Part shown: positions 4,421-56,100 of the stretch, one piece after another | Numbering within the stretch: the first letter of the stretch is position 1 | Layout of the letters: each line of letters opens with the position of its first letter | Notes under the pieces: model-generated | Told to the model about the DNA's origin: nothing | Seen by the model: the letters and a program-made list of their open reading frames with translations, nothing else | The model's database searches: none | Source of the DNA: Burkholderiales bacterium | GTDB lineage: Bacteria > Pseudomonadota > Gammaproteobacteria > Burkholderiales > SG8-41 | Reading direction: 5' to 3' | NCBI GenBank assembly: GCA_019744975.1 | Contig: JAIETP010000010.1 | Location: forward strand, 62,001-126,000 | Length of the DNA stretch: 64,000 nt | Made by a program: the position numbers and the translations under genes

Positions 4421-4442
4421 TAAATTATTGATTATATTGATA
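4421..4442 (-). repeat. Dispersed IHF-like motif, copy 1 (pilA promoter)
   Basis: Reads TATCAATATAA then TCAATAATTTA on the minus strand. The core AATCAATAATTTA is a perfect WATCAANNNNTTR match. It sits about 50 bp upstream of the sigma-54 promoter, between it and possible activator sites, where IHF usually bends sigma-54 promoter DNA. Confidence 0.75.
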
Positions 4443-4477
4443 TTTTTAAATTTTACGTGTTAAAGAAATTATTGTGG

Positions 4478-4493
4478 CGTGATCTGCGTCACG
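4478..4493. promoter_or_regulatory. CRP/Vfr-like palindrome upstream of pilA
   Basis: CGTGATCTGCGTCACG contains GTGA-N6-TCAC, the CRP-family half-sites in perfect symmetry. It lies about 110 bp upstream of the sigma-54 promoter. An adenylate cyclase and a cNMP phosphodiesterase gene lie in the same window, which makes cAMP control plausible. Confidence 0.55.
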
Positions 4494-4571
4494 GTTAACC
4501 GTCGCGGTCAGAAACTGCAGGATTCCATATGCCGGCGGAGCCAATCGCGACAAGTAATGATCGGTCACAAA

Positions 4572-4588
4572 CTGACAAATTTTGTCAG
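4572..4588. promoter_or_regulatory. Palindrome, possible activator (PilR-type) site
   Basis: CTGACAAATTTTGTCAG has 8-bp perfect arms around a single central T. It lies about 190 bp upstream of the -24 element of pilA, a usual enhancer distance, and overlaps the stop codon of the neighbouring TPR gene. Assignment to PilR is inference. Confidence 0.4.
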
Positions 4589-6351
4589 CCACGGCCGCTG
4601 GTTTTGACCACCAGTTGCTCCCGAATATCGGCAATCACCGGAGACCATACACCACGAACTGGTTGCCGGAACAACCGTACCGATGGATACCAGGGCATGG
4701 TGCCCCGCTCCAGGCCATAACGCCATTCCGGAATCCGCGGCGTCATGACCCACGCCGGGCGGCCCAGTGCGCCGGTCAGATGGACCACCGAGGTGCACAC
4801 CGAGATCACCAGATCCAGCGCGCTGACCAGCGATGCTGTCTCGTCATAGTCGCCATCGATGGCTTCCGGCCAGTCAGAGATGACTATGCCCTGCGCGGCA
4901 GTCAAATCTTCAATTTCACCGACCCGATCACCGTACTGCAGATTAACCCAGCGCACACCGGGAACGGTCAACAGCGGCAGCAACTGCGTCAGGTCGAGCG
5001 ATCTGCGCGCCCGCCGGGTGACCACGACACCTCCCCGCCAGGAAATGCCGACTTTGAGGCCCTGCCCGAGGGCAGCAAGCTGTCCTCGCCAGTACTGGAC
5101 ACGAGCAGGATCGGCCTTCAGATAACCATCGTGCGCGGGAAATTCCCGCAGTCCGCTGCGAAAATGACGCGGCAAGCTGCCGGCGTAACTGTAAACATCG
5201 ACCGGGACTCCGGGGTCAGTGCGCTCCCGGGTCTCCATATCGTGCAGGGGATGAAACCTCGCTCCCGGAAAAGAACGGGCGAACAAGCGCTCAAGACGTG
5301 GTTCGCATTCGATATGGCATTGCGCCGATTGCCGCAGCAGGTCCGGATAGCAGGATGCGTACATGATCTCATCCCCCAGTCCCTGCTCACGCATGACCAG
5401 GATGGTTCGGCCATTCAGTGCCGTGCCGTTCCAGCGTGGCTCGCAGGATCGCCATGCCTTGAACCGGTTGATATTCAGACGCTGCTCAAAATCCACCCAG
5501 CCCTCGCGAAAGCGCCAGCGCATCAGATTGATCAGGCTGATGTCGTAGCGTGCCGCCACGGAATCGGGTTCGAGTTTTAATGCCCGGCGGTGCGCCGCCA
5601 ACGCCTCTTCGGGCTTGCCCAGGTCGAACAGCGCATTGCCCAGCACCACATAGGGCGCTGAGTCATCTGTGTAAAGCTGCAAGGCCTTCCTTGACGTTGC
5701 TACGGCAGCCTCGAGCTCGTCCACGCCAAACTGGGCCAACGCAAGACAGCACAGCGTCTCGAAATTCTCGCCGTTCTCAGCAATAGCTCTTTGGGCCAGC
5801 GGCAGCATCTCGCGGTGCCGGCCAACACGATCCAGCCCGGAACACAGGCGGAGCAGCAGGTCCTGGCGTTCCGGCGCAAATTCCAGGGCCGCAAACAGCT
5901 CTGTCAGTGCGTCACGGTCACGCCCCGTTGCCTGCAGCACATCCGCCAGCACTGCCCGAAAGCGGGCCTCGGTGGGCTGCGCGGCAACCGCATCACGGGC
6001 ATGTTTTTCGGCGGCCTCATGGTCTCCGGCCTCGAACCTGATCGTCGCCAGATCCGCATGTGCATCCGCGAGATCGGGGTCGACCTCCAGAGCGGCCTTC
6101 AGCAGGCCTTCGGCCTCGGTGTATCGATTCAGCGCCATCAGGGCACGCGCGCATAGATGGCGGGCTTGGGCGCTGTCCGGCTGCTCGGAAATAACGGACT
6201 CGCAGGCCCGGATGACCTCTTCGTAACGGCTGGCATTGAATGCCGCGATCGCCGGTCCGAGACTGGCAACTGCCTGCTTTTCGCGCGCCGCCCGTGCCGC
6301 GGCAGCGGGCGACCGCCACAGTCCCGTCAGCAGACTCTTCAACATGCGCAT
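4585..6351 (-). CDS. TPR protein with GT9-like glycosyltransferase C-terminal domain
   Basis: 588 aa. Residues about 35-270 are consecutive tetratricopeptide repeats (A-L...Y-x-E-A...A-L pattern). The C-terminal half resembles heptosyltransferase/GT9 folds: DEIMYASCYPDLL, a nucleotide-binding-like GISWRGG, and DLVISVCTSVVHLTGALG near the end. Such TPR-GT9 proteins are common near flagellar, pilus or polysaccharide loci and may modify a surface glycan or protein. The substrate is unknown. Two adjacent Met codons (6351, 6345) are both possible starts. Confidence 0.75.
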   Translation of the reverse strand: MRMLKSLLTGLWRSPAAAARAAREKQAVASLGPAIAAFNASRYEEVIRACESVISEQPDSAQARHLCARALMALNRYTEAEGLLKAALEVDPDLADAHADLATIRFEAGDHEAAEKHARDAVAAQPTEARFRAVLADVLQATGRDRDALTELFAALEFAPERQDLLLRLCSGLDRVGRHREMLPLAQRAIAENGENFETLCCLALAQFGVDELEAAVATSRKALQLYTDDSAPYVVLGNALFDLGKPEEALAAHRRALKLEPDSVAARYDISLINLMRWRFREGWVDFEQRLNINRFKAWRSCEPRWNGTALNGRTILVMREQGLGDEIMYASCYPDLLRQSAQCHIECEPRLERLFARSFPGARFHPLHDMETRERTDPGVPVDVYSYAGSLPRHFRSGLREFPAHDGYLKADPARVQYWRGQLAALGQGLKVGISWRGGVVVTRRARRSLDLTQLLPLLTVPGVRWVNLQYGDRVGEIEDLTAAQGIVISDWPEAIDGDYDETASLVSALDLVISVCTSVVHLTGALGRPAWVMTPRIPEWRYGLERGTMPWYPSVRLFRQPVRGVWSPVIADIREQLVVKTSGRG

Positions 6352-6494
6352 GGAATGGTTTCGGACCTCTGTGAGTCTGGTTCGGATATCCTTTCAGGTA
6401 TCCGCGTCATCCGCGGGGCTACACCTGCAGGAACATGCTTGGTATTCTCGCATTCTACACATGCAGCTTTTCATCCCGCACAAAGGAATGAGTC

Positions 6495-6815
6495 ATGGGT
6501 CTTTTCGGATCGGTTTCTGGAAAACAGGTGGATGAGTTCGCGCGCGGACTCGTCGAAACGGTATTGACGCTACGCCCGCCCAAAGGCAAGGCAACGCCCA
6601 GCAATCCCGGAGTTTCCCTGAAAACCCTGGAACCCAGGGTCGACGCGCTTTTTGAAACAGCAACCTCATTCAGAAAAGAGCACAAGCTCGGCGTCTACAA
6701 GAAAGCCCGGCTGGCCAATACTTTCCGCTGGGAAATGAAGGAGCGCGGTTATGACGACGGATTCATCGAAATGATCACAGAAAAACTGGTCGTCGCATTG
6801 TCAAAGAAGGACTGA
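6495..6815 (+). CDS. Small conserved-looking hypothetical protein
   Basis: 106 aa, soluble and basic, beginning MGLFGSVSGKQVDEFARGL after a clear AAAGGA ribosome-binding site at 6481. No membrane segment, signal peptide or recognised motif. It stands alone on the plus strand between two minus-strand genes. Even codon use and the ribosome-binding site support a real gene. I do not recognise a function. Confidence 0.7.
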   Translation: MGLFGSVSGKQVDEFARGLVETVLTLRPPKGKATPSNPGVSLKTLEPRVDALFETATSFRKEHKLGVYKKARLANTFRWEMKERGYDDGFIEMITEKLVVALSKKD

Positions 6816-11004: not shown

Positions 11005-11784
11005 TCAGAACTCAAAAATCTGGTTCTGTTCCAGCATGTTCAGCCGTCGCCCGGGCACCCGGTCCACGATCTGCTCCATGATAAGTTCTGCTTCCCGCGG
11101 TTTGAAGTGTGTCACATAAATGGCCGGATCCAACTGCAGTTTGGCCAGTTCCTCCGCCAGCAGACCCGGGCAGAGATGTTTGGAGATTACCGCAAGTTCC
11201 CGCTCCGCATCCGACAGCGCAGACTCGATGATGATATATTTTAAGTTATTGATTTTATTGATATATTTCCAGGATGCGTCCTGGCTGGTGGTATCCCCGG
11301 TAAACACCAGGCTGGCTGCCCCGGAATCGAGGTGAAAACCGACCGCCGGAACCACGTGATTCGCCGGCAGCGGCGTAATGGTCCGACGGCCGGTCCGCCG
11401 GTCGTCCAGCGCCACCGGCACCCCTACCCGTACCGGGGCATAACGCAGCAGCGGTGACTTTGCGTCGGGGATCTGCCGGAAATCAGGCCACAGCTTCCAG
11501 TTGAACAAGTGTTCGCTGAGGATATCCAGCGTTTCCTGGATCGCATGCAGCGTGACCGGTTTGGCGCGTTGCCAGCCGACGGTGTCGAGCAGGAACGGGA
11601 TTGAAGTCACATGATCGAGATGGGAATGCGTCAGGAAAACATGGTCGATGTTCGCCAGTTGCTGCAACGACAGGTCCCCGACGCCGGTCCCGGCATCAAT
11701 CAGCACATCGTCGTCGAGCAACATCGAGGTTGTACGCAGGTCGCCGCCGATGCCGCCACTGCAGCCAAGGATCCGCAGCCTCAT
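11005..11784 (-). CDS. Class II 3',5'-cyclic-nucleotide phosphodiesterase (metallo-beta-lactamase fold)
   Basis: 259 aa. The metal-binding signature HSHLDHVTSIPFLL (about residues 53-66) matches the class II cNMP phosphodiesterase pattern H-x-H-L-D-H. Other MBL-fold ligands appear as TGDTT and ESALSD, and a late His is in YVTHFK. It should hydrolyse cAMP to AMP. Its ATG overlaps the TAA of the upstream adenylate cyclase gene by 1 nt, so cyclase and phosphodiesterase are probably translationally coupled, pairing synthesis and breakdown. A copy of the dispersed IHF-like motif lies within the coding sequence. Confidence 0.85.
   Translation of the reverse strand: MRLRILGCSGGIGGDLRTTSMLLDDDVLIDAGTGVGDLSLQQLANIDHVFLTHSHLDHVTSIPFLLDTVGWQRAKPVTLHAIQETLDILSEHLFNWKLWPDFRQIPDAKSPLLRYAPVRVGVPVALDDRRTGRRTITPLPANHVVPAVGFHLDSGAASLVFTGDTTSQDASWKYINKINNLKYIIIESALSDAERELAVISKHLCPGLLAEELAKLQLDPAIYVTHFKPREAELIMEQIVDRVPGRRLNMLEQNQIFEF
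11242..11263 (-). repeat. Dispersed IHF-like motif, copy 2 (inside phosphodiesterase gene)
   Basis: TATCAATAAAA then TCAATAACTTA on the minus strand, with a perfect WATCAANNNNTTR core. It is in frame as Ile-Asn-Lys-Ile-Asn-Asn-Leu, with Leu encoded by TTA, an unusual codon in this GC-rich gene. Confidence 0.75.
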
Positions 11785-18507: not shown

Positions 18508-18769
18508 CCCTTTTGCGCCCGTTCCGCTTGTTTTTTTGTTTCTGCTGAATGACTTAACGACGGAGTTTCACAGATTTTACGATATCCACCTCTAAACATT
18601 ATGTTTTTTTGAGGACTTAGTGCCAAAGGTCACAGGCCATGGTCATTCGTCCGACCGCCGGTCGCAGCGCACCGACAAACGTGCCGTTTCAACCCCGGGC
18701 GTCCGTGCCGAAACCGGTTTACCAAAGAAATTATCAATAAAAACAAATACTTACTTAACAGCAAAAGAA
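18508..18769. other. Intergenic region between kinase operon and formyl-THF hydrolase gene
   Basis: No credible gene in about 260 bp. It must hold the promoter of the minus-strand kinase operon (right of 18507) and contains copy 3 of the dispersed motif. I see no clear sigma-70 or sigma-54 hexamers. Confidence 0.5.
18732..18753 (+). repeat. Dispersed IHF-like motif, copy 3
   Basis: TATCAATAAAA then ACAAATACTTA on the plus strand. The core AAACAAATACTTA differs from WATCAANNNNTTR at one base. It is intergenic, upstream of the kinase operon and beside a terminator. Confidence 0.7.
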
Positions 18770-21176: not shown

Positions 21177-21262
21177 GATTCCATTCCGATAATTTACGTA
21201 AAATAAACAAATAGTTATAAAATTCAAACACCTGCTTCCCGCAACCCCGCCATTCACCAGCC

Positions 21263-26228: not shown

Positions 26229-27242
26229 TCAGGGTTTGGCGAGGAACCCGGCTTCCTTCATCAGGTCGCGGTGCAGCGATTCCGCCTTGGCCACCCAGTC
26301 AGCGTAGCCTTTGCCGGTCATGAAAGTCTGGTTGAATGCACCGTCTTCCATGAATTTTTTCCATTCCGGGGTCGCACGCACCTTGTTGAACAGGTCGATA
26401 TAAAAAGCGACCACGTCCGGAGACACGCCGGCCGGCATGAAAATACCGCGCAGCATCACGTACTCCATCGGGATGCCGGCTTCCTTGCAGGTCGGGATGT
26501 CGTTCCAGGACTGTGTTGTGGTGACCTTGTCCTTGTACGGCATGCGCTGATCGTCAAACACGCACAATGCACGCAGTGAACCGGCACGCCATTGCGCCAC
26601 CGCCTCGATCGGGTTGTTGACGCTCGAGTTGATGTGTTTGCCGACCAGCTGGGTCGCCACCGCACCACCGCCCTTGAACGGGATGTAGGTGAACTTGACG
26701 CCGGCCGCCTTTTCGATCGCCACGGTGATGATCTGGTCTTCCTGCTTGGAACCCGTGCCGCCCATCTTGAAGGCGTTCGGGCCGGCTTTTTTCACTGCGT
26801 CCAGATATTCCTTGGGCGTTTTGTAGGGGTCTTCCGAGTTCACCCACAACACAAAGTTGTCCAGTGACAGCATCGCGACGGGTGTCAGATCCTTCCAGTT
26901 GAAAGGCACACCGGTCGCCATCGGCGTCGTGAACAGATTCGACAGGGTGATGATGATCTTGTGCGGGTCGCCCTTCGCGGCCTTCACCTCGAGGAAACCT
27001 TCCGCACCGGCGCCACCCGACTTGTTGACGGGAATCAGCGCCTGCTTCATCAGGTTGTGTTTGGCGACAATGCCTTGAACCAAGCGCGCCATCTGGTCAG
27101 CACCACCGCCGGTGCCGGCGGGAATGATGAACTCGACGGACTTGGTCGGTTCCCAGGCTGCGGCAGGACCGGATACGGCGACCAGGCCGAATGCGGCAAC
27201 CAGCGGCAGCAAGCCGCGTGACAATACTCGTTGAATACCCAT
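26229..27242 (-). CDS. tctC: TctC/Bug-family periplasmic solute-binding protein
   Basis: 337 aa with a Sec signal peptide ending AVSGPAAA. The mature protein begins WEPTKSVEFIIPAGTGGGADQMAR, the Bug-family ligand loop. A strong AGGAGGA ribosome-binding site precedes the ATG. It is the first gene of the tctCBA unit, with a TTGAC-N4-ATCAA box 125 bp upstream. The complete three-part cluster is notable because most Bug proteins are orphans. Ligand unknown; oxalate is suggested only by neighbours. Confidence 0.9.
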   Translation of the reverse strand: MGIQRVLSRGLLPLVAAFGLVAVSGPAAAWEPTKSVEFIIPAGTGGGADQMARLVQGIVAKHNLMKQALIPVNKSGGAGAEGFLEVKAAKGDPHKIIITLSNLFTTPMATGVPFNWKDLTPVAMLSLDNFVLWVNSEDPYKTPKEYLDAVKKAGPNAFKMGGTGSKQEDQIITVAIEKAAGVKFTYIPFKGGGAVATQLVGKHINSSVNNPIEAVAQWRAGSLRALCVFDDQRMPYKDKVTTTQSWNDIPTCKEAGIPMEYVMLRGIFMPAGVSPDVVAFYIDLFNKVRATPEWKKFMEDGAFNQTFMTGKGYADWVAKAESLHRDLMKEAGFLAKP

Positions 27243-27508: not shown

Positions 27509-27530
27509 AATCAATTAAATCAAATACTTA
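27509..27530 (+). repeat. Dispersed IHF-like motif, copy 4
   Basis: AATCAATTAAA then TCAAATACTTA on the plus strand. The core AATCAAATACTTA is a perfect WATCAANNNNTTR match and is identical to copies 6 and 8. It is intergenic, 3' of usp. Confidence 0.75.
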
Positions 27531-32541: not shown

Positions 32542-35352
32542 TTATATTTTTTCGAGTTGCGCCAGCACCTGCCCGCCGCCGTAGCTGGAACGCGGCGTCA
32601 GTTCTCCGCCCTTCATCACTTTCACCGCGCAATACTTGAACTCGGGAATCTTGCCGACCGGATCGAGCGCGGCATTGGTCAGCAGATTCACCGCCGCTTC
32701 GTAGTAACAGAAAGGGATGAACACCGCGCCGCGCGGCGTGCCGTCGTCAGGACGCGCATGCAGCGAAATCAGGCCGCGCCGCGACTCCACGGTGATCACG
32801 TCACCACCCCGGGCGCCGATCTGGTCGAGATCCAGCGGATGCATGGACACCGTTGGTTCCGGTTCAATGGCGTCGAGTACGCCGGCACGGCGCGTCATCG
32901 CACCGGTATGCCAATGCTCCAGCTGGCGACCGGTGATCAGCACAAACGGGAACTCACTGTCAGGCCGTTCGTTGGCCGGAATCACATCAGCCGGCACAAA
33001 CTTCGCCTTGCCGGTGGCTGTCGGAAATTTATCAATAAAAACAATTGGTTGCCCTGGGTCGCCTTCTTGCTCACAGGGATAAGTAACACAGCTCTCAGCT
33101 TCCAGCCGCTCCCAGGTGATGCCGGCGATCGAATTCATCGCTTGACGCATTTCGTTGAACACGTCCTTCGGACCGTTGTAATTCCAGTCGAGTCCGAGGC
33201 GGCGCGCCAGTTCCTGGATGATCCACAGGTCGGGTTTGGCTTCGCCCGGCGCGTCCAGCGCCTTGCGGCCCATCTGCACCATGCGATCGGTATTGGTCAC
33301 CGTGCCGTCTTTTTCCGGCCACGCCGTCGCCGGGAAAATCACGTCGGCGTAATAACAGGTTTCGGTGAGGAAAATCTCCTGAACCACCAGGCAATCGAGT
33401 TTCGCCAGTGCCTCGCGCGCATGGTGCGCATCCGGATCCGACATCGCCGGGTTTTCGCCCATCACGTACATGCCGCGAATCTCGCCCTGCAGCGTGGCGT
33501 GAATGATTTCCACCACGGTCAGCCCGGGCTTCGGATCGAGTTTCATGCCCCAGAGTTTTTCGAAACGCGCCAGCGCCTGCGGATTATCGACACGCTGGTA
33601 ATCCGGAAACACCATCGGGATCAGGCCGGAGTCGGAAGCGCCCTGCACATTGTTCTGCCCGCGCAGCGGATGCAGCCCGGTGCCGGGACGGCCGATCTGG
33701 CCGGTCATCAGGCACAGCGCGATCAGGCAGCGCGCATTGTCGGTGCCGTGAATGTGCTGCGAAATGCCCATGCCCCACAGAATCATCGAGGCCTTGGACG
33801 TCGCGTAAACCCGCGCCACTTCCCGGATGGTTTCGGCGGGAATGCCGCACACCGGCGCCATCGCTTCCGGGCTGTAACCCTCGACGTTTTTCTTCAGGTC
33901 TTCGTAACCGATGGTGCGCGACTTGATGAAGTCCTCGTCGACCAGACCTTCATGCACAATGACGTGCATCATCGCGTTCAGCAGCGCGACGTCGGTGTCG
34001 GCCTTGAACTGCAGCGAGTAGGCCGCATGGCGCGACAACTCCGAACGCCGCGGATCGGCGTAAATCAGCCTGACACCGCTCTTTACCGCGTTCTTGATCC
34101 AGGTCGCCGCCACCGGGTGGTTGGAGATCGGGTTGGCCCCGATCAGAAAGATGACTTCCGCATTCGCCACGTCGCTGACCTGGTTCGACACCGCGCCGGA
34201 ATTCACCGCTTCCATCAGCGCCGCGACGCTGGAGGCATGACACAGGCGTGTGCAGTGGTCGACATTGTTGGAGCCGAAACCGGTGCGCACCAGTTTCTGG
34301 AACAGATAGGCTTCCTCGTTGCTGCCTTTCGCCGAACCGAAACCGGCCAGCGCTTTTTTGCCGCTCTGATCACGGATCGCGCGCAACTTGCCGGCGGCAA
34401 GATCCAGCGCCTCTTCCCAAGTCGCCTCGCGGAAGTACTCCAGCGGATTCGCCGGATCCATCGTGAAATCGGCGTGTTTGGGCGCGCCCGGCTTGCGGAT
34501 CAGCGGTTTGGTCAGACGCTGCTTGTGGTTCACGTAATCAAATCCGTAGCGACCCTTGACGCAAAGGCGCTCGTGGTTGGACGGGCCGTCGCGACCGTCC
34601 ACCGAAATGATCTTGTTGTCCTTGATGTTGTAGGTCAGCTGACAGCCGACGCCGCAATAGGGACAGACCGAATGCACCTGCTTGTCGGGTTTGACCAGCC
34701 CGGCTTCGCGCGCCGGCATCAGGGCGCCGGTCGGGCAGGCCTGCACACATTCGCCGCAGGCAACGCAGGTGGAGTCGCCCATCGCGTCACCGAGATCAAA
34801 CACGATGGACGAATGTTCGCCGCGGAAGGCGTAACCGATGACGTCGTTGACCTGCTCCTCGCGGCAGGCACGCACACAGCGTGTGCACTGGATGCAGGAA
34901 TCGAGGTTCACCGCGATGCCGTAATGCGACACATCGGCCTGCGGCTGGTGGCGCGCCTTGAACCGCGGTTTGCCGACCTTGAGTTTGGCCACCCACTGGT
35001 CAAGCTCCGAATTACGGGTGTGACGTTTCTCCGGCATGTCGGAGAGCAGCAGCTCCATGACCATTTTCTGCGACGCCAGCGCGCGCGCATTGTCGGTGGT
35101 GACTTCCATGCCCGGCGAAGGTTTGCGGCAGCAGGAGGCCGCGAGCACGCGCTCGCCCTTGACCTCGACCACGCAGGCGCGGCAGTTGCCGTCGGGCCGC
35201 ATACCCTCCTTGTAACAGAGGTGCGGAATCTCGACGCCGTGGCGCTTCGCGGTCTGGATGATGGTCTCGGACGCGTAACCGACCACGTCCTTGCCGTTCA
35301 GCTTGAATTCGACCGGCATTGCCGCCAGCTCGTCTTTGTTCATCGCAGTCAT
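32542..35352 (-). CDS. fdsA: NAD-dependent formate dehydrogenase, molybdopterin alpha subunit
   Basis: 936 aa. From the N-terminus: a 2Fe-2S domain (LCYKEGMRPDGNCRAC), a Cys3-His-like segment, two 4Fe-4S clusters (CIQCTRCVRAC, CVACGECVQAC), another 4Fe-4S site (CPYCGVGC) and the molybdopterin domains. The probable Mo-ligand Cys is in HCTRLCHASS, so this is the Cys and not the selenocysteine form. It oxidises formate in the cytoplasm. It follows fdsB after a long hairpin and precedes fhs by 87 nt. Copy 5 of the dispersed motif is inside the gene. Confidence 0.93.
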   Translation of the reverse strand: MTAMNKDELAAMPVEFKLNGKDVVGYASETIIQTAKRHGVEIPHLCYKEGMRPDGNCRACVVEVKGERVLAASCCRKPSPGMEVTTDNARALASQKMVMELLLSDMPEKRHTRNSELDQWVAKLKVGKPRFKARHQPQADVSHYGIAVNLDSCIQCTRCVRACREEQVNDVIGYAFRGEHSSIVFDLGDAMGDSTCVACGECVQACPTGALMPAREAGLVKPDKQVHSVCPYCGVGCQLTYNIKDNKIISVDGRDGPSNHERLCVKGRYGFDYVNHKQRLTKPLIRKPGAPKHADFTMDPANPLEYFREATWEEALDLAAGKLRAIRDQSGKKALAGFGSAKGSNEEAYLFQKLVRTGFGSNNVDHCTRLCHASSVAALMEAVNSGAVSNQVSDVANAEVIFLIGANPISNHPVAATWIKNAVKSGVRLIYADPRRSELSRHAAYSLQFKADTDVALLNAMMHVIVHEGLVDEDFIKSRTIGYEDLKKNVEGYSPEAMAPVCGIPAETIREVARVYATSKASMILWGMGISQHIHGTDNARCLIALCLMTGQIGRPGTGLHPLRGQNNVQGASDSGLIPMVFPDYQRVDNPQALARFEKLWGMKLDPKPGLTVVEIIHATLQGEIRGMYVMGENPAMSDPDAHHAREALAKLDCLVVQEIFLTETCYYADVIFPATAWPEKDGTVTNTDRMVQMGRKALDAPGEAKPDLWIIQELARRLGLDWNYNGPKDVFNEMRQAMNSIAGITWERLEAESCVTYPCEQEGDPGQPIVFIDKFPTATGKAKFVPADVIPANERPDSEFPFVLITGRQLEHWHTGAMTRRAGVLDAIEPEPTVSMHPLDLDQIGARGGDVITVESRRGLISLHARPDDGTPRGAVFIPFCYYEAAVNLLTNAALDPVGKIPEFKYCAVKVMKGGELTPRSSYGGGQVLAQLEKI
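33030..33051 (+). repeat. Dispersed IHF-like motif, copy 5 (inside fdsA)
   Basis: TATCAATAAAA then ACAATTGGTTG on the plus strand, antisense to fdsA. The core has one mismatch to WATCAANNNNTTR. It encodes Pro-Ile-Val-Phe-Ile-Asp-Lys in fdsA with almost only A/T-ending codons, unlike the flanking sequence. Confidence 0.7.
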
Positions 35353-41200: not shown

Positions 41201-41222
41201 TAAGTATTTGATTTTATTGATT
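41201..41222 (-). repeat. Dispersed IHF-like motif, copy 6
   Basis: AATCAATAAAA then TCAAATACTTA on the minus strand, perfect core AATCAAATACTTA. It lies in the short gap between the convergent CapA-like and enolase-superfamily genes. Confidence 0.8.
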
Positions 41223-42512: not shown

Positions 42513-43649
42513 TTACAGCGTGCGCGGCTGCAGATTCAGCAACTGGCCGATACGCTCCGAGCTTTTCAATCCGCTGCCGGTCAGCACCACGATGGTTTCC
42601 TCATCGCGGCGAATGGCGCCGGAGGTGAGCAACTGCGTCAATCCGGCTGCAGCGGCCGCGCAGGTTGGCTCCACATACAAACCCATCGCGGCCAATCCGC
42701 CCAGCGCGGTGATGATTTCCGTTTCGCTGACCGCCGCGATCGCGCCCTCGCTGCGGCGCACCGCCTGAACCACCTCGCGCAGCCGTGTCGGCTGAGACGA
42801 AGCGATGCCCTCGGCCACCGTCGGACTGATGGCCGTCGGCACCGGCGACTCGCTGCCGGCCTGCCAGGCGGCATGGCAGGGTGCACAATTCGCCGCCTGC
42901 ACGCCGAAAATACGCGGGCGTTTTTTGATTTCACCGTTGCGGAGCAGTTCATCAAAACCACGATCCAGGCCCAGCACATTGCTGCCGTAACCCAGCGGCG
43001 TGATGACATTGTCCGGCGCGCGGAAACCGAGTTCTTCCCACAATTCGTAGGCCAGCGTCTTGGTGCCTTCGATGAAAAACGGCTGCCAGTTGTGACTGGC
43101 ATAAAAAATTTCGCTGCTCATGCGCAGCGCGGCATCGGCCACGTCCTGGCGTGTGCCCGGCACCGTCACCACATCGGCGCCGCAGGCGGCGATCTGCGCA
43201 ATTTTCGGATACGACGCCGTTTCCGGCACCAGGATGCGGCAGCGCATGCCCGCCGCCGCCGCGTACGCCGACAACGATGCGCCGGCATTGCCCGATGAAT
43301 CCTCCAGCACATGGTCGATACCGCGGCTTTTCAGGTAGCTGACCATCACCGTCATGCCGCGGTCCTTGAACGAACCGGTGGGCATCATGAATTCGAGCTT
43401 GAAACGCACTGGCGCGCCATTCCACTCTCGGCTCAGCAAGGGCGTGCCGCCTTCACCCAGCGACACCGCGCTTTGCGCAGCAACACCGATGGCCTGCGCA
43501 TAACGCCACATCGAGCGATCCTGAGGGTTGATCGAATCGCGCGTCATGCCCGAACCGGGCGCAAGATTCAGGTATGCGCCGCTGTCGCCACACCATCTCG
43601 CGACCTTGGACGAATAATGAGTGCCGCTTTGAGAGTCTATGTAATACAT
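42513..43649 (-). CDS. Threonine synthase-like PLP-dependent enzyme
   Basis: 378 aa from ATG 43649 (MYYIDSQSG). The PLP Lys is in MMPTGSFKDRG and the phosphate-binding region in EDSSGNAGASLSAYAAA. GYGSNVLGLDRGF and a late VLTGSGLKSS also fit threonine synthase / cysteate synthase fold type II enzymes. There is no ribosome-binding site ahead of this ATG; an AT-rich dispersed motif overlaps it instead. The longer frame begins at TTG inside another gene's terminator and is unlikely. Substrate uncertain. Confidence 0.75.
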   Translation of the reverse strand: MYYIDSQSGTHYSSKVARWCGDSGAYLNLAPGSGMTRDSINPQDRSMWRYAQAIGVAAQSAVSLGEGGTPLLSREWNGAPVRFKLEFMMPTGSFKDRGMTVMVSYLKSRGIDHVLEDSSGNAGASLSAYAAAAGMRCRILVPETASYPKIAQIAACGADVVTVPGTRQDVADAALRMSSEIFYASHNWQPFFIEGTKTLAYELWEELGFRAPDNVITPLGYGSNVLGLDRGFDELLRNGEIKKRPRIFGVQAANCAPCHAAWQAGSESPVPTAISPTVAEGIASSQPTRLREVVQAVRRSEGAIAAVSETEIITALGGLAAMGLYVEPTCAAAAAGLTQLLTSGAIRRDEETIVVLTGSGLKSSERIGQLLNLQPRTL

Positions 43650-43663
43650 TGATTTTATTGATA
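43642..43663 (-). repeat. Dispersed IHF-like motif, copy 7 (over the threonine synthase-like start)
   Basis: TATCAATAAAA then TCAATGTATTA on the minus strand, perfect core AATCAATGTATTA. The ATG inside the motif is the probable start codon of the PLP-enzyme gene. Confidence 0.8.
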
Positions 43664-49712: not shown

Positions 49713-49734
49713 AATTAATAAAATCAAATACTTA
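49713..49734 (+). repeat. Dispersed IHF-like motif, copy 8
   Basis: AATTAATAAAA then TCAAATACTTA on the plus strand, perfect core AATCAAATACTTA. It lies in the 42-bp gap between the aldolase stop and the Bug-protein start. Confidence 0.8.
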
Positions 49735-50666: not shown

Positions 50667-50784
50667 GCAATGGCCGTTATTTTTCAGCATTTAACGGCAA
50701 TAAACCAAAGCAAATTCACAGAGGAAAAATAAGAGCCTGCTCTGCTTCCATGTGCTGTGGTTAACTGCCTTTCAAAGGCCCAGA

Positions 50785-50803
50785 GTGTGCCAAAAGTGTG
50801 CCA
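50785..50803 (+). repeat. Possible integrase arm-type repeats, left end
   Basis: GTGTGCCA occurs twice with an 11-bp period (50785, 50796). A matching pair with the same period and orientation lies at 56019-56037 by the right end. Confidence 0.55.
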
Positions 50804-50908
50804 AAAAAATCAGAGGGTGTCGGTCTTGTAAAGAATACGTTAAAGTTCTTACTGCGCCGATTTGATATACAGCTTGCGGGCGCCTAATAAAATGCAGCTA
50901 AAGCGAGG

Positions 50909-50942
50909 AAACCCGCTCTAGCGAAAGCTGTGCGGGTTTTTT
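50909..50942 (+). terminator. Intrinsic terminator in the left island region
   Basis: AAACCCGC pairs with GCGGGTTT, with an inner AGC-GAAA-GCT, followed by six T. No ORF with support precedes it in 50667-51067, so it may end a small RNA or an incoming transcript. The rest of this 400-bp stretch holds only the arm-type repeats. Confidence 0.65.
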
Positions 50943-51067
50943 AGTTGGTGCCGCCGATTTAAGCAACAACTTGCAGGGCGGGATACAAGAACTGCTAAAG
51001 CGTTGGCCGGCCCACCCGGACCCCCGGGGCCTGTCCAGCGATCACGGATGGGGGCAGGAGAAGTAAT

Positions 51068-51571
51068 ATGAGTGATTCAGTAGAAATAGCCCCGGGCGAG
51101 TTGTCGCCCTTTGAGCCAGAACTCAAGGCCATCCTCAGTAGCCTTCACGGGCATCTCACCGGGCTGAACGGCGAGATCTTCTACGTCCTCCGCGAGTGTA
51201 ACAACGCGAACATCCCAGCCGATGTGGCAGACCGGATTACGAAGGTGTTTGAGGCGTTCTTTGGCACTGTCCAACACGACGTGCGCGCCGAAGTTCTGAA
51301 CCTTGAGGACAAGCTCGGTTTACGCCCCGGTCTGAAGCCCTATGATCCGGACATCAAAAACCCCGACCCGAGGGTGACCATCGGCTTCATCCGGGATTGG
51401 CTGCACGCAGATTTCGTGGATCTAGATCAGCTGGTGAAGGAACTAAAAGGAAACAACGCTCTTGGCTATATCTTGGTCTCGGAGACCGGTGCCAACATGT
51501 TGAACATACATGGGGACATCGTGGATGGGCTGCGCCGGATCGAGAGCATCCTCTCGCAGCACAATCGGTAA
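51068..51571 (+). CDS. Island cargo protein 1, unknown
   Basis: 167 aa, acidic and mostly helical, beginning MSDSVEIAPGELSPFEPEL after AGGAGAAGTAAT. No signal peptide, transmembrane helix or recognised motif. It is the first of three closely spaced plus-strand genes in the island, divergent from the integrase side. I do not recognise a family. Confidence 0.7.
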   Translation: MSDSVEIAPGELSPFEPELKAILSSLHGHLTGLNGEIFYVLRECNNANIPADVADRITKVFEAFFGTVQHDVRAEVLNLEDKLGLRPGLKPYDPDIKNPDPRVTIGFIRDWLHADFVDLDQLVKELKGNNALGYILVSETGANMLNIHGDIVDGLRRIESILSQHNR

Positions 51572-51600
51572 ACACTTACCTCTTCTACGAGGAGCGGCAT

Positions 51601-52290
51601 ATGGCCAAGCACACTCCAACCTATCCCGAAGGCGGCTGCTGCATTTCAATATCAGAGTCGCCAGACCGGGCGACATCACCATTCACACTCGAGCAGAGCA
51701 TTGTATTTGAAGCCTATTTCAACAAAACGTCAGACAGAGAAATAGCAGCTTCAATCGCCTGTGATCGTCTCGGGGTACCGGACGAGACTCGATGTTCACG
51801 TATCGAGGCGGCTGTTGGTCAGATACTTATTCACAGTATTCAGCATCGACTTCCACAATGGCGGTCAACCCGGGGCGACAAGCTGATCTACGGACGCAAA
51901 TACAGTAAGTCCCCTGTGGGCGCTCACGTGGCTTTCGTTCCCCAGCATCTCTTTACAATAAATTGGGCAAATTCGGGGCCCGGGCTTTTTTGGCCAGAGA
52001 GCTACCACCTATGCTACGTTCCGATCCATCACCGCTATGTCGCAATAGCCTCCCAAGACAGCACTGACGTCTACGGATGCACCGATCAAGCCATGGGCCA
52101 TTTCGAACCTCGGGAAAGGCGATTGGTGGGTGCCAAACGAATTCTTACTGCGCACTGGCGCGAGCAGTTGGATTCCTATACACAAATGCCTTGGGTAGAA
52201 GTTTTGAACGAGGGGCTCGTCGATACCAAGCGCGCAGAGCGATGGCGGCAACAAGTCTGGCCAGGAGAACCCGAAAGCTACCTCGGGTAG
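51601..52290 (+). CDS. Island cargo protein 2, unknown
   Basis: 229 aa from ATG 51601 (MAKHTPTYPEGG), chosen because GAGGAG lies 6 nt upstream; a longer open frame back to 51397 overlaps the previous gene and has no ribosome-binding site. The C-terminal half is rich in aromatics and His (SYHLCYVPIHHRYVAIAS), suggesting a compact globular domain. It follows gene 1 by 29 bp. Not recognised. Confidence 0.7.
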   Translation: MAKHTPTYPEGGCCISISESPDRATSPFTLEQSIVFEAYFNKTSDREIAASIACDRLGVPDETRCSRIEAAVGQILIHSIQHRLPQWRSTRGDKLIYGRKYSKSPVGAHVAFVPQHLFTINWANSGPGLFWPESYHLCYVPIHHRYVAIASQDSTDVYGCTDQAMGHFEPRERRLVGAKRILTAHWREQLDSYTQMPWVEVLNEGLVDTKRAERWRQQVWPGEPESYLG

Positions 52291-52332
52291 TCAGTCAATA
52301 GCCAATGTCGCGACTCTCTGGAAAGGGCGGGT

Positions 52333-52662
52333 ATGAGCGATTCGAGTAAAAAACTGCTCAATGCATCTAATTTTGTCTCCGATTTTTGCACTGTGATTCT
52401 GATCTGGACCCCACTGCTTTGGTTTATCGGTGAACATCGAACAGCCTCTGGGGGGCATAATGGCGAACCCACTCTGGTGTTCGAAGCACTGAGCATGGGA
52501 TGGGCCGATATTGCACTACTTGCCTTATTGTGTGCGGCATCTTTTTTATCGCAAATACGCTTCATACTAGTCAGGCAAGACCTAATGAAATTCGAAGCGC
52601 TCAAGCGTCGGCATAACGAAGCGCAAGCTTTTTTACGGCAGCAGGCTGGCGAGAAATTTTGA
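52333..52662 (+). CDS. Island cargo protein 3, small two-helix membrane protein
   Basis: 109 aa. Two transmembrane segments are visible (about residues 15-32, FCTVILIWTPLLWFI; about 58-76, IALLALLCAASFLS), then a charged C-terminal helix. It follows gene 2 by 42 bp. A small membrane protein with two soluble partners is a layout seen in some defence or toxin systems, but function here is unknown. Its DNA is clearly AT-richer than the chromosome. Confidence 0.65.
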   Translation: MSDSSKKLLNASNFVSDFCTVILIWTPLLWFIGEHRTASGGHNGEPTLVFEALSMGWADIALLALLCAASFLSQIRFILVRQDLMKFEALKRRHNEAQAFLRQQAGEKF

Positions 52663-52707
52663 CGCCAGGCGGAGCATATCGGCTTGCCCTACAAGCCTAA
52701 ATTGCCT

Positions 52708-53127
52708 CTAACTCCCAATCGGCCTAGGCACTTTGTTCGCGTTTTCCTCAAGTGCCGAGACCCGTCGATCAAGAGCGTCAATTTCGATGATTCTGGCTTG
52801 TGCCGCGACAGCTTGCATCACCGCGGTTGCCTCGCTCGGGGTAATTTCCCCTCTGCAAAGCGCGGCGAGCACAGCGCGGCCTTGGTCTGCCAAGGATTGG
52901 TCGTGGCTGGGCAACTCGACCGGGCTGTCCTTGGCCTTAACAGGGGGTAGAAGTCGATCAATACAGATGCGCAGGGCCGTCGTATCGCCCTCCAAAGCGC
53001 GCTCTATGGCCTTCCCGATCAGATCCCCTGCATGGGGCTCAAGAAACGCCCTGAGCACTGTGCGCTTGTCGCGAATACCAACTGGCCTGCCGGCGGGGTT
53101 ACCGCTATGCCCTTTCTTGTATCTCAT
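52708..53127 (-). CDS. DUF5681-domain protein
   Basis: 139 aa. MRYKKGHSGNPAGRPVG is the DUF5681 signature (KGxSGNPxGRP), found mainly in phage and mobile-element proteins often near terminase genes. The rest is helical with a coiled coil near the C-terminus. Its start overlaps the upstream gene stop by 4 nt. It converges with cargo gene 3. Role unknown; a small-terminase-like role is a guess. Confidence 0.75.
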   Translation of the reverse strand: MRYKKGHSGNPAGRPVGIRDKRTVLRAFLEPHAGDLIGKAIERALEGDTTALRICIDRLLPPVKAKDSPVELPSHDQSLADQGRAVLAALCRGEITPSEATAVMQAVAAQARIIEIDALDRRVSALEENANKVPRPIGS

Positions 53128-53408
53128 TTTTTCCTGATCAGATCAGGGTTTCGTAATTCTCGTAATATTTTTGCCTCGCCCAAACCAACAGGCACTGCTG
53201 CGATCGCACGACTTAGTAAATCCCCATCGCTTTCTCGACTTCTGCGCTTGATGATGATTACGTCCTTCGGATCCATACTATCGCCATGGCGCTGATACCC
53301 TAATAAAGGAAGGTGTTTTTCATAGGAAAAGCTGATTACGATAACCGGCGAAGATGTCTCACCGCACTTTTGTTCAAGTTTGTTGATGCGTGCTGTCAGT
53401 GATTTCAT
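53124..53408 (-). CDS. Island hypothetical protein
   Basis: 94 aa, beginning MKSLTARINKLEQKCGE, a short coiled coil, then a beta-rich stretch (VIVISFSYE) and a basic tail. Overlaps the DUF5681 gene by 4 nt, so the two are translationally coupled. Not recognised. Confidence 0.6.
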   Translation of the reverse strand: MKSLTARINKLEQKCGETSSPVIVISFSYEKHLPLLGYQRHGDSMDPKDVIIIKRRSRESDGDLLSRAIAAVPVGLGEAKILRELRNPDLIRKK

Positions 53409-53428
53409 ATTACGATTCGCGCATTGCT

Positions 53429-54010
53429 TTACCGCACATTCATCTCGAAAGGTGCTGGACCCTCATACTCATTGAGAAAATCTTCATGCTCTTTCATATA
53501 GACGCTCTGGTTTTCTACTTCATTCCCCTCCCCTATATTCCCCACCTCTCCCCTCAAGGGGCTGGCAGGCCCCTTCACAGGGTGGCTAGGAGGCACCTTT
53601 GAAGGGTGGCTGGAAGCTAGCCTTTCAGGATGGCTCATTTTTCTTCGTTTCTCTTGAACTTGCTTCCCTCCCTCTGACATACGAGCACGCCGCTCGGCCA
53701 ACGCGGCTCGATATGCAAGCAGTTCGGGACACACGATCGTGGCTGGCGCTCCATCCTCGATCCTAAAATGGCGCATAACGCGCTCGGTGAGTGCAGCCTC
53801 GACCTCAGCCCGATTAAGCCCTAATACACGGGTTAATTCACCTATCTCGCTTGGTAATCCACTGTTCACCCAGCACTCCAGCTCCATCGTGTGGAGTAAG
53901 CCGCGCTCAGCCAAGGACATCAGCTTGAAATTGCGATCCGCCAGACGATCAGATGCATACATCTGAAAAGCAGGTGGCCCTCTCCGGCTATTCTTCTGTG
54001 AAGTGGACAT
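53429..54010 (-). CDS. DUF1376-like protein, possible replication initiator
   Basis: 193 aa from ATG 54010 (MSTSQKNSRRG). Residues about 15-100 (FQMYASDRLADRNFKLMSL...RGLLHTMELECW) resemble the winged-helix DUF1376/YdaU domain of phage replication proteins. The C-terminal part has repeated Ser-His-Pro units (ASSHPSKVPPSHPVKGP) and an acidic tail. It starts 4 nt after the AlpA-like gene. Function by similarity only. Confidence 0.6.
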   Translation of the reverse strand: MSTSQKNSRRGPPAFQMYASDRLADRNFKLMSLAERGLLHTMELECWVNSGLPSEIGELTRVLGLNRAEVEAALTERVMRHFRIEDGAPATIVCPELLAYRAALAERRARMSEGGKQVQEKRRKMSHPERLASSHPSKVPPSHPVKGPASPLRGEVGNIGEGNEVENQSVYMKEHEDFLNEYEGPAPFEMNVR

Positions 54011-54014
54011 CGGC

Positions 54015-54290
54015 TCAGCCCGTGATCTGACACCGCTGCTTTTGCTGGGAAGCCACCCACCTAAAAAAAGCGGACTCGTCAATCAACACACGACGACCGA
54101 CGCGAACAATCGCTCCGTATCTCTCCATTCCGTTTCCCGGAATGCTTTGGCCACGCGCGCTAATACGGTCGGCAGAGTGGAGAATCAGGTTTCTGAGCGC
54201 CGCCTGCGTCCAAGCTGGTCGGCGTTGGGCAAACTGCTTTACGGTATACAGATCGCGTGGTGACGCGTCATTAGCTGTATGTTGTTGCAT
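54015..54290 (-). CDS. AlpA/excisionase-like DNA-binding protein
   Basis: 91 aa. LYTVKQFAQRRPAWTQAALRNLIL is a MerR/excisionase-like helix-turn-helix, and RVLIDESAFFRWV is the typical wing and following helix. Such proteins help excision or activate satellite and integrase genes. A perfect palindrome at 54342-54361 lies about 50 bp upstream and may be its operator. Confidence 0.75.
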   Translation of the reverse strand: MQQHTANDASPRDLYTVKQFAQRRPAWTQAALRNLILHSADRISARGQSIPGNGMERYGAIVRVGRRVLIDESAFFRWVASQQKQRCQITG

Positions 54291-54341
54291 GAGCGCTCCT
54301 CTTGCTTGTCGATGCGCTCATTTGATTCCCTTAGAACGACA

Positions 54342-54361
54342 AAATAAATCGGGATTTATTT
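54342..54361. repeat. Palindrome upstream of the AlpA-like gene
   Basis: AAATAAATCGGGATTTATTT has perfect 9-bp arms around GG. It overlaps the 3' end of the gene at 54356-54832 and lies 52 bp upstream of the AlpA-like start. It could be an operator or a weak terminator. Confidence 0.6.
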
Positions 54362-54832
54362 ATCTTTTCTCAGATTTTTCTTGTAGTAGGAAAGACCGCC
54401 TACAGCCTGCCATGCCGCCTTAATACTACTCTTTGATTTACGACGTCTGGTCGCTACGACCTGCAATGCGCTGTCTACGCTGACAGGCATACCCTTCGCC
54501 CGCTGCCTATCGAGCACACCGGCTACTTCCATATAAAACAGCGGCCGGACATCCGGTTTTCGCGGGGCCCCGCGGCTACGTTCGATTCCCAACGCCCGTT
54601 CGATCCCTATGCCCCGGGCAAGAAAATTACGCAATCCTTCCTCAAGAAATCGGAGCGCCACTAAATCCGCCTCCATTACATCCTTGCCTTTGTCGATTTC
54701 CGCGATTGCGTCCACTGCTGCATGCAGCAACGACCTTGCAGCCAGAGCGTCACCGCGCTCGGCCGCCGTCACCTTGCTCCGTAACACTTTGGCGAAGATT
54801 CTTTGTTTTCGACGTCGTTCGAGCGTATGCAT
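54356..54832 (-). CDS. Island hypothetical protein
   Basis: 158 aa, strongly basic at both ends (MHTLERRRKQR; KNLRKDK). Internal helices with an EKG-like DKGKDVMEADLVALRFLEEGL stretch, then a Lys/Arg-rich helix-turn-helix-like tail (ATRRRKSKSSIKAAW). It lies between integrase and AlpA-like genes. Not recognised; nucleic-acid binding is plausible. Confidence 0.55.
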   Translation of the reverse strand: MHTLERRRKQRIFAKVLRSKVTAAERGDALAARSLLHAAVDAIAEIDKGKDVMEADLVALRFLEEGLRNFLARGIGIERALGIERSRGAPRKPDVRPLFYMEVAGVLDRQRAKGMPVSVDSALQVVATRRRKSKSSIKAAWQAVGGLSYYKKNLRKDK

Positions 54833-54853
54833 TATGGCGTTCCAGCGCCCCCA

Positions 54854-55975
54854 CTAGGCACCAAAATACTTTCGAGTCATCCGCTCAACAACAGCCCCGG
54901 TATGCTGGTCCGACAGGTGCGCGTATCGCTTCACCATGGATAGAGTCTTGTGCCCGAGCACAGCCGCTATCTCCGGGGTGGTCGCACCACTCATGGCTAG
55001 GTAACTTGCGGCCGTATGGCGCAGATCGTGGAAGCGAAAGTCCTGAATGCCAGCTTGTTTCAGCGCCTCATACCACCATGCGTCGAACCACAATGGCCCG
55101 ATGTCCTTGGCTTTTTCGGCTATGACAGGTGATTTCTTGCGTATGGGTTTGGCAGGGAAAAGAAGGTCTGTGTCGAGCCGGCGCACTTTTGCATATTCAC
55201 GCAGCAACGCAGCAACCTCAGGCACCGCAGGAACAGAGCGCCGTTCTCCGTTCTTGGTCTTCTGCAGCACAATCAGCCGGCGCTCTAGATCCACGTCCGG
55301 CCAACGCAGTCCGAGTATCTCCCCTCTGCGCATCCCAGTTGTCAGCGCCATCAGGACAATCAGGTAGAGCTCTGGGAGCGTGGACTTCTTGCATGCAGCC
55401 AGCAGCGCCTTGCGCTCATCATCGGACAGAAATCGCACCCGCCCGGTGGACTCCGTTTCCTTATTCACCCGTAGCACCGGGTTGTCTTGCAGCCAGTGCC
55501 ATTCCTTTACCGCATTGGAAAACGCCTTGCTCAGGGCATACAGGAATCGGTTAGCCGTTGCCGGGCCTCGATAGGCGGGCGCCTTTTCAGTGCCGATGTT
55601 TTCCTGCTGGAGCTTGTCCCGATACTCGGCGATGAGGGCGGGAGTCACCTGCGCCAGGGTGTAATTCCCGAGCTTTACCCTCCACCAGCCGAGATGCCCT
55701 TTTTGGCGGTTGTAGTCGCGGGGACGTTTACTCTTGACTGTTTCCAGCTGACGATCAATCAGATCAGCCAAGGTGCGACGCTTGGCTTCGCGCATGGGAA
55801 AGTGTCGGCCGTCGCGCATCTCGGCCTCTACCTTGGTCGCCCAAGCCTTCGCATCGGTCTTGCGATCAAAGCTGGCTGAAACCGGGGGGTAGCCCCGCAG
55901 TCGGACTTGAGCGCGGTAGCGAGTGTTTTGCCGGCCTTCCTTATCGGTCCACGTCCGCGCCTGAATCGTCGCCAT
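54854..55975 (-). CDS. int: Tyrosine-family site-specific integrase
   Basis: 373 aa. ATG 55975 (MATIQARTW) follows AAGGGG. An AP2-like N-terminal arm domain (about 1-60) and SAM-like core-binding domain (about 70-170) precede the catalytic domain. Catalytic residues: Arg in TGMRRGEILGL, Lys in KTKNGERRSVP, His-x-x-Arg in HDLRHTAAS, His in LGHKTLSMV and Tyr in KRYAHLS. It adjoins the intact tRNA gene, the usual position for island integrases, and should recombine the 45-bp att repeats. Confidence 0.95.
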   Translation of the reverse strand: MATIQARTWTDKEGRQNTRYRAQVRLRGYPPVSASFDRKTDAKAWATKVEAEMRDGRHFPMREAKRRTLADLIDRQLETVKSKRPRDYNRQKGHLGWWRVKLGNYTLAQVTPALIAEYRDKLQQENIGTEKAPAYRGPATANRFLYALSKAFSNAVKEWHWLQDNPVLRVNKETESTGRVRFLSDDERKALLAACKKSTLPELYLIVLMALTTGMRRGEILGLRWPDVDLERRLIVLQKTKNGERRSVPAVPEVAALLREYAKVRRLDTDLLFPAKPIRKKSPVIAEKAKDIGPLWFDAWWYEALKQAGIQDFRFHDLRHTAASYLAMSGATTPEIAAVLGHKTLSMVKRYAHLSDQHTGAVVERMTRKYFGA

Positions 55976-56018
55976 GGTGAGCCCCTTGCGGTTGGTTACT
56001 GGCAATTCCTGCCACCGA

Positions 56019-56037
56019 TTGTGCCAGAATTGTGCCA
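56019..56037 (+). repeat. Possible integrase arm-type repeats, right end
   Basis: TTGTGCCA occurs twice with an 11-bp period (56019, 56030), just upstream of the integrase start. Pairs with the repeats at 50785-50803. Confidence 0.55.
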
Positions 56038-56078
56038 ATACACGCAATTGGGCCAGATTAGGCTAGACGAATAAATTC

Positions 56079-56100
56079 CAACTTATTGTTTTTATTATCT
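56079..56100 (-). repeat. Dispersed IHF-like motif, copy 9 (beside attR)
   Basis: AGATAATAAAA then ACAATAAGTTG on the minus strand. The AATAAAAACAA part is shared with copies 3 and 5; the core has one mismatch to WATCAANNNNTTR. It lies 4 bp from the attachment core, where phage integration sites usually have IHF sites, so it may be unrelated to the chromosomal copies. Confidence 0.5.

Follow-up and report, generated by a model that had tools for sequence, protein, structure and literature searches.

Dispersed, evenly spaced IHF-type sites in a Burkholderiales genome suggest a chromosome-folding scaffold

What would place a nearly constant AT-rich sequence every few kilobases along a GC-rich chromosome, in gene gaps and inside genes, on both strands? 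The question is raised by a 64-kb stretch of the genome of an uncultured betaproteobacterium of the Burkholderiales (the window, meaning the whole stretch of DNA analysed), in which a first-pass annotation had listed nine copies of a 22-bp motif.

Copies of the motif in the window

All nine copies are present letter for letter on the strands listed below. The reported perfect WATCAANNNNTTR is indeed found in six of them (copies 1, 2, 4, 6, 7 and 8), with one base off in the other three (3, 5 and 9), and copies 4, 6 and 8 do share an identical 3' half. In leave-one-out scans of the window with a position weight matrix (PWM), each of the nine ranked 3rd to 9th, and scanning also revealed a tenth, weaker copy absent from the first-pass list. 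The sites, with the number of mapped relatives that retain each, are as follows:

Copy 1, 4421..4442 (-), TATCAATATAATCAATAATTTA: gap between co-directional genes; same-orientation site within 250 bp in 4/4 mapped relatives (4/8 unmapped)
Copy 2, 11242..11263 (-), TATCAATAAAATCAATAACTTA: within an MBL-fold hydrolase gene (11005-11784, -), residues ~173-180; 5/5 mapped relatives
Copy 3, 18732..18753 (+), TATCAATAAAAACAAATACTTA: intergenic, flanked by a kinase-domain gene and a formyltransferase-like gene; 7/7
Extra weak copy, 21196..21217 (+), ACGTAAAATAAACAAATAGTTA: divergent gap; 5/7
Copy 4, 27509..27530 (+), AATCAATTAAATCAAATACTTA: intergenic, with the neighbouring gene (26229-27242, -) on one side and a universal stress protein gene (27580-28008, -; its 3' end) on the other; 5/8
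Copy 5, 33030..33051 (+), TATCAATAAAAACAATTGGTTG: within a molybdopterin oxidoreductase gene (32542-35352, -), presumably fdhA; 7/8
Copy 6, 41201..41222 (-), AATCAATAAAATCAAATACTTA: convergent gap of 66 bp; 4/8
Copy 7, 43642..43663 (-), TATCAATAAAATCAATGTATTA: tandem gap; 7/7
Copy 8, 49713..49734 (+), AATTAATAAAATCAAATACTTA: tandem gap of 42 bp; 3/5
Copy 9, 56079..56100 (-), AGATAATAAAAACAATAAGTTG, the weakest of the nine: between tRNA-Met and a tyrosine integrase gene; mappable in 0/8 relatives

Among the three relatives that miss copy 4, G005 and G020 carry a site at another place between the same anchors. Because it is flanked by tRNA-Met and a tyrosine integrase gene, copy 9 may stand outside the array, as an att-associated site of the DNA-bending protein integration host factor (IHF).

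Make-up, density and spacing of the sites

The array is real and larger than the first-pass annotation had stated. A 44-bp PWM (~45 bits), applied to an 824-kb sample of the genome at a cut-off score of >=20, identified 104 sites, whereas a single order-2 Markov replicate yielded 0, and extrapolation from this sample gives ~465 sites per genome. Genome-wide, WATCAATAAAAWCAAATACTTA with <=3 mismatches has 252 matches and its reversed-pattern control has 0, so that the density is far above random by both measures. At the cut-off of 20 there were no matches in 458 kb from other organisms, made up of 35 FdhA-neighbourhood loci. An initial loose pass with the matrix of the nine copies had given one weak match each in L125, L131 and L134, loci titled gammaproteobacterial.

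As read from its sequence, each site is a unit of ~38 bp composed of an A-tract, an AT-rich middle with a recurring TATCAATA, and the IHF core AWCAANNNNTTR; little is conserved beyond about -9..+31, judging from the information content of the PWM. The E. coli IHF consensus, WATCARNNNNTTR, fits the PWM at a single best register (0/5000 column shuffles were equally good) and is perfect in 39 of the 104 sites and within one mismatch in 100. The permitted variation tracks this consensus, with A or G at its last position; the third consensus base is A in about half of the sites, which is off the E. coli consensus. Upstream of the core, A occurs at a frequency of 0.70-0.87 at positions -4 to -1, and most of the strongest IHF sites are described as having an upstream A-tract in the part of PMC8421141 consulted. 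The sites thus resemble E. coli IHF sites in register, left A-tract and a length near the 35 bp of an IHF site, but differ from them in their near-fixed 22-bp core, including TATCAATA, in their hundreds of near-identical copies, in their regular spacing, and in the conservation of their positions even inside genes.

Intervals between sites are more even than chance, with a coefficient of variation (CV) of 0.50 compared with 0.95-1.17 expected (0/2000 simulations in each of three nulls), and more even than a random choice of gene gaps would give (CV 0.95). Sites typically occur about once per 8 kb in the source genome and 3.4 kb apart in a sister genus, and strong sites are never less than ~2.4 kb apart in the sample. 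Even spacing is found in three genomes: the source genome, one of a second genus, and one of another family.

Most sites (85/104) fall within gene gaps or at their borders, including gaps of just 24-50 bp, and 19/104 were scored inside genes, two of which were checked. Compared by eye, the gap classes of the sites (59 tandem, 16 divergent, 10 convergent) are near background (323, 100 and 64), and orientation relative to tandem genes is even (30 with, 29 against), ruling out a promoter, terminator or operon-boundary element. There was no replichore orientation bias with respect to local GC skew (50 sites with, 54 against), ruling out a replication-oriented motif, and neighbours do not alternate in orientation (46/100 adjacent pairs alike). 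KOPS, Chi and matS are short directional or regional chromosome sequences, each read by one protein; the sites described here are likewise short sequences along the chromosome, but without the orientation bias.

Conservation among relatives and the IHF and HU complement

Positions of the sites are conserved in close relatives: the site is kept in 47/59 mapped cells and missing in 12/59, compared with 391/1502 for random intergenic positions. Neither of the two outcomes that the first-pass annotation named as grounds for refutation, a random-level density and positions that close relatives do not share, was thus observed. Two of the nine copies lie inside genes, at 11242 and 33030. Across 13 sequences the fdhA copy displays codon-level conservation, including synonymous positions, and their comparison indicates that it arose without an indel. 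For the gene containing copy 2, a tblastn search of the G016 stretch recovered no ortholog and that of G013 only a fragment of 31% identity; both genomes nevertheless carry a site near this position.

Within the family, the array is dense, sparse or absent depending on the genome. Copy number ranges from 48 to 252 in the source genus and from 7 to 739 in genus g9, one member of which, G089, has A/G at the sixth consensus position (CAA/CAG), a variation that again follows the consensus. Such wide variation among relatives is odd for a fixed architectural need and counts against one. Nearly the same site, evenly spaced, recurs in G452, a genome of another family. A looser, class-wide scan of 369 genomes at <=2 mismatches (four of the source order, G452 excluded) found no further dense genome; the top counts were 265 (G000), followed by 22, 20 and 11 (family f83) and 12 (G596).

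The source genome encodes intact IhfA and IhfB (143 bits to NCBIfam himA and 133 bits to hip, both above cut-offs). These two are its only PF00216 proteins; HU, ordinarily the abundant member of the DNABII family, was undetected. The arms of IhfA and IhfB align closely with those of solved IHF (2iie/2iif). HU is found in 0/35 motif-rich members of the family and in 22/39 others, an HU match being absent also in 17/39 motif-poor members. A causal tie between the array and HU loss may exist. Loss as a sufficient cause is rejected because there are HU-less genomes without the motif (in g4 and g8, and the single-contig G058, which has IhfA and IhfB only), and loss as a strict requirement is doubtful because G452, in which canonical HU is absent by eye, retains a divergent HU-like protein.

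Explanations and implications

We consider it probable that the copies form a chromosome-wide set of putative high-affinity IHF (IhfA/IhfB) sites serving nucleoid or supercoil domains. This corresponds to the architectural site, possibly for IHF, suggested by the first-pass annotation, and the register, A-tract, density, positional conservation and even spacing support it well, if indirectly; the alternative in the annotation, that the copies are what is left of a small dispersed repeat, did not hold up. Many copies of a near-identical short sequence are what a mobile or dispersed repeat of the REP, MITE or Correia type would leave, and the RIB/RIP BIMEs of enterics, which are IHF-binding interspersed repeats, have dispersed IHF-type sites within one genome. 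BIMEs and Correia elements are, however, repeat elements that move or duplicate, whereas no element was found around the site, which stands alone; in the sources as far as consulted, Correia elements of Neisseria share the same dispersal of IHF-type sites. With so little conserved around the sites, with their even spacing, and with an indel-free, codon-conserved fdhA copy for which it is refuted, this origin is highly improbable. To composition or chance AT-rich islands we assign next to no probability: the AT-richness of the motif against a GC-rich genome would fit, but the reversed-pattern and Markov controls rule this out, as does the absence of matches in the loci of other organisms.

The main rival holds that the lineage is naturally competent and the motif its DNA uptake sequence; uptake bias would then accumulate the motif wherever mutation is tolerated, and the likeness to IHF sites would be incidental or secondary. 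Like the USS of Pasteurellaceae and the DUS of Neisseriaceae, as far as the excerpts consulted describe them, the sites are dispersed on both strands, enriched outside genes, evenly spaced and without orientation bias (PMC1939737); origin by point mutation (PMC7811141) fits the one copy examined, in fdhA, and lineage dialects are described in Neisseriaceae (PMC3630211). A ComP_DUS-family protein is encoded in the source genome, but matches to ComP_DUS (PF16732) occur in 22/22 genomes tested, motif-rich and motif-poor alike, and therefore do not discriminate. Spacing here is 3-8 kb, compared with ~1 kb for USS in the same partial sources, and the motif is longer than an uptake sequence, AT-rich, and carries ~45 bits over ~38 bp in the IHF register with an upstream A-tract. 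Its near-identical recurrence in another family would be unlikely for an arbitrary uptake code but expected if its reader is the conserved IHF, and we judge an uptake sequence unlikely. Alternatively, IHF could bind for local reasons, at transcription or supercoiling boundaries or as insulators between neighbouring genes, with even spacing following from gene-cluster size. The preponderance of sites in gene gaps, even very short ones, fits, but the near-background gap classes, the even orientations, the sites scored inside genes and a spacing too regular for random gene-gap choice make this quite unlikely.

If the sites are indeed IHF sites, selection rather than copying would maintain them at about one per 8 kb. 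IHF would bend the DNA sharply at each site, pinning the tips of plectonemes there, and could bridge distant segments, and in this way the array would set the layout of nucleoid loops or supercoil domains about as large as a gene cluster; occupancy of the sites and looping are what we infer from sequence. With no HU in the lineage, IHF would plausibly take over its architectural load. Simulations in which IHF bridges separate topological domains have been reported (PMC9519438, consulted in part). As a tentative but serious possibility, the array could be a sequence-encoded, quasi-periodic scaffold of several hundred optimised IHF sites, kept even in coding sequence and apparently evolved at least twice without canonical HU, that defines loop or supercoil domains. 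Among titles and abstract openings, in a literature search of partial coverage, we found no description of such an array.

It has long been an open question whether DNA sequence encodes the nucleoid domains of bacteria, and the prevailing view for E. coli is of largely variable domain borders. The hundreds of near-identical and unusually regular IHF-type sites suggest a built-in chromosome-folding scaffold; if they are domain anchors, domains would be readable from the genome, countable, comparable between species and deletable. The extrapolated number of sites happens to fall within the 400-500 supercoiled domains given for E. coli in the part of PMC3820752 consulted. Dense, sparse and absent arrays in one family, together with a second occurrence in another, would provide a natural experiment on the replacement of architectural proteins.

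Existence and spacing of the motif

All nine copies that the first-pass annotation placed in the window were recovered as given, along with its tally of six perfect IHF consensus matches and three that are one base off; we located one further copy, a weaker tenth, at 21196. The suggestion that the motif extends chromosome-wide is borne out, as the core pattern with up to three mismatches occurs 252 times in the source genome (3.69 Mb in 44 contigs) and its reversed control not once. From 85 matches of the nine-copy matrix in an 824-kb sample that includes the window (contigs C1 1-320 kb, C2 42-146 kb, C3 1-240 kb and C4 1-160 kb), we refined a 44-bp matrix of ~45 bits, which reads A-tract, WATCAATAAAA, WCAAWTRSTTA and then a weak AT-rich tail. 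It has 102, 104 and 114 matches in the sample at cut-offs of 24, 20 and 12, compared with 0, 0 and 1 in one order-2 Markov replicate; because the number of matches barely changes with the cut-off, the sites form a discrete population, extrapolated to ~465 in the genome (104/824 kb x 3,686 kb).

Relative to genes predicted with a purpose-made gene caller (coding 86-90%), 69 of the 104 sites are intergenic, 16 lie across a gene edge and 19 fall within called genes. The gaps they occupy (59 tandem, 16 divergent, 10 convergent) resemble the background (323, 100 and 64), and orientation is biased neither with respect to tandem genes (30 versus 29 sites) nor to local GC skew (50 versus 54). Between copies 2 (11242) and 3 (18732), the window also encodes an 857-aa protein (15934-18507, minus strand) whose C-terminal third contains a Ser/Thr kinase domain.

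The sites are spaced far more evenly than expected by chance. For the 94 sites of the sample scoring at least 30, the coefficient of variation (CV) of the intervals is 0.50, compared with 0.98, 1.17 and 0.95 when sites are drawn uniformly, from intergenic bases or from distinct gene gaps, and none of 2000 simulations under each null was equally regular. Only 2 intervals are shorter than 2.4 kb, where 20-30 would be expected, and no interval is longer than 21 kb, against an expected maximum of 41-51 kb. Raising the cut-off to 35 or 40 gives CVs of 0.58 and 0.64, respectively (again 0/2000 in each null), with no interval below 2.4 kb and a longest interval of 32 kb, for which P is weaker (0.002-0.05). 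The same matrix located 65 sites in 229 kb of G089, a member of another genus of the family (g9), with a mean spacing of 3.4 kb, a CV of 0.61 versus 0.97 expected (P 0.0002) and one interval below 1 kb versus 15.6 expected. Exceptions to the wide spacing are two opposite-strand pairs ~80 bp apart, G000:C1:92864/92945, both weak members (scores 33-34), and G000:C3:122405/122485, one of them weak (27).

Likeness to IHF sites and conservation

The IHF consensus WATCARNNNNTTR matches the matrix at one offset only (log2 probability -1.4; runner-up -9.8), and none of 5000 column shuffles matched it equally well; it is perfect in 39 of the 104 sites and within one mismatch in 100. Upstream of the core is the A-tract, placed as PMC8421141 describes for most of the strongest IHF sites.

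Copy 5 (33030) falls within a molybdopterin oxidoreductase gene (Pfam; 32542-35352, minus strand), which we infer to be fdhA; its product is 92% and 90% identical to its closest named relatives, from MAGs titled Betaproteobacteria. The window sequence was aligned with 30 of 80 retrieved loci, 12 of them genus-like and 18 others. Across the 13 genus-like sequences, codon identity is 0.95 over the site versus 0.62 elsewhere in the gene, the site windows ranking highest among 822 windows of 8 codons; GC3 is 0-0.25 versus 0.65-0.83. TTT ATT GAT AAA TTT is invariant in all 13 and preceded by GTT in 12; at the same position the 18 others have a GC3 of 0.62-1.0. The encoded residues partly differ between the groups: the AAA codon's lysine occurs in 13/13 and 0/18, respectively, and the VFID ahead of it is also present in the two closest others (L070, L071). 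The alignment of these 31 sequences has no indel at the site, which therefore arose by substitution. Three loci carrying the coding site (L065, L066 and L074) come from MAG records titled Bordetella parapertussis; by the 87-88% identity of their fdhA-like proteins they belong with the betaproteobacterial genus of the source genome, and the records are probably mislabelled.

Positions are conserved as well. Across eight genomes of the same genus, at 80-87% nucleotide identity, 59 of 80 copy-by-relative combinations could be mapped; a same-orientation site lies within 250 bp in 47 of these and is absent in 12, and 391 of 1502 random intergenic positions are equally near any site in either orientation. 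In two of the misses, both of copy 4 (in G005 and G020), a site lies elsewhere in the same between-anchor stretch. Copy 9 (56079) was mappable in none of the eight. It lies at the tRNA end of a lower-GC stretch that looks like an integrated element and whose other ORFs are one DUF5681 ORF and mostly unmatched ones:

50700-56181, lower-GC stretch
54854-56047, minus strand, tyrosine integrase, within the stretch
56105-56181, minus strand, tRNA-Met, adjoining the ORFs of the stretch

Copy 9 may thus be an att-associated IHF site.

Distribution and DNABII proteins

Among 74 genomes of the family, all 21 genus members carry 48-252 copies; g6 has 309, g9 61-739 except G091 with 7, g7 8-24, and g2, g3, g4, g5 and g8 0-4. 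Among 399 sampled genomes of the order (12 from the source family), the sole dense genome outside the family is G452 of family f25, with 137 copies; the 11 remaining sampled f25 genomes have 0-1, and no further dense genome emerged when 369 genomes from across the class were scanned more loosely. The matrix of G452 itself reads AAAA-TATTCAATAWAATCAAWTASTTA, with 48 sites in 400 kb versus 0 in a single Markov replicate, a mean spacing of 8.5 kb, a CV of 0.59 versus 0.97 (0/5000 simulations equally regular) and 4 intervals below 2.4 kb versus 11.8 expected.

The source genome has two PF00216 matches, IhfA (himA, 143 bits) and IhfB (hip, 133 bits), both exceeding the cut-off. A search with an HU profile (A1) detected HU in none of 35 motif-rich family members versus 22 of 39 others (one a partial match), counts that are not independent events, as the genomes are related; absence is weak evidence in motif-rich bins with zero DNABII matches (G004, G088) or only one. 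For two HU proteins scanned, the best-scoring NCBIfam models were HU, yet under cut-offs. What speaks against a causal rule by which HU loss leads to the array is that 17 of the 39 motif-poor members likewise lack HU matches (g4 4, g7 3, g8 4, g2 3, g3 2 and G091) and that G058, a single-contig genome of another family, has IhfA and IhfB only, is free of the motif and contains 3 matches to the IHF consensus in 400 kb versus 1.7 expected. G091, the sole near-motif-free g9 genome, has an extra divergent IhfB-like protein (L185-L187) and is a possible natural loss of the array. By eye, G452 lacks canonical HU and has one divergent HU-like and two extra IhfB-like proteins (seven matches, two weak ones outside this classification). 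Also by eye, G027 of g8, without HU and motif, has two additional IhfA-like proteins (L298, L304), and several f25 members have, in place of or alongside canonical HU, a second HU-like type whose arm carries RNPATG (L281-L283, L286-L289).

Possible readings: uptake sequence or nucleoid scaffold

The alternative most deserving a test is that the motif is a DNA uptake sequence. Such sequences share its even spacing, enrichment outside genes and absence of orientation bias (PMC1939737) and originate by point mutation (PMC7811141), and all 22 genomes tested, motif-rich and motif-poor alike, encode a ComP_DUS-family protein. We consider this reading unlikely and place it below the IHF one, given the motif's length, its IHF register and A-tract, and its recurrence in G452, which belongs to another family.

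Judged from sequence, the motif is a real, selected, quasi-regular array of putative IHF-type sites. PMC8421141 reports DNA bending by IHF of >160 degrees and bridging supported by simulations with AFM, and in the simulations of PMC9519438 plectonemes are pinned and the DNA is divided into topological domains. Given bending, bridging and pinning, strong evenly spaced sites would set loop or supercoil domains, here of some 3-20 kb. IHF sites as a kind are already known; what would be genuinely novel, and what we propose tentatively at slightly less than even odds, is that the array serves as a sequence-encoded periodic nucleoid scaffold.
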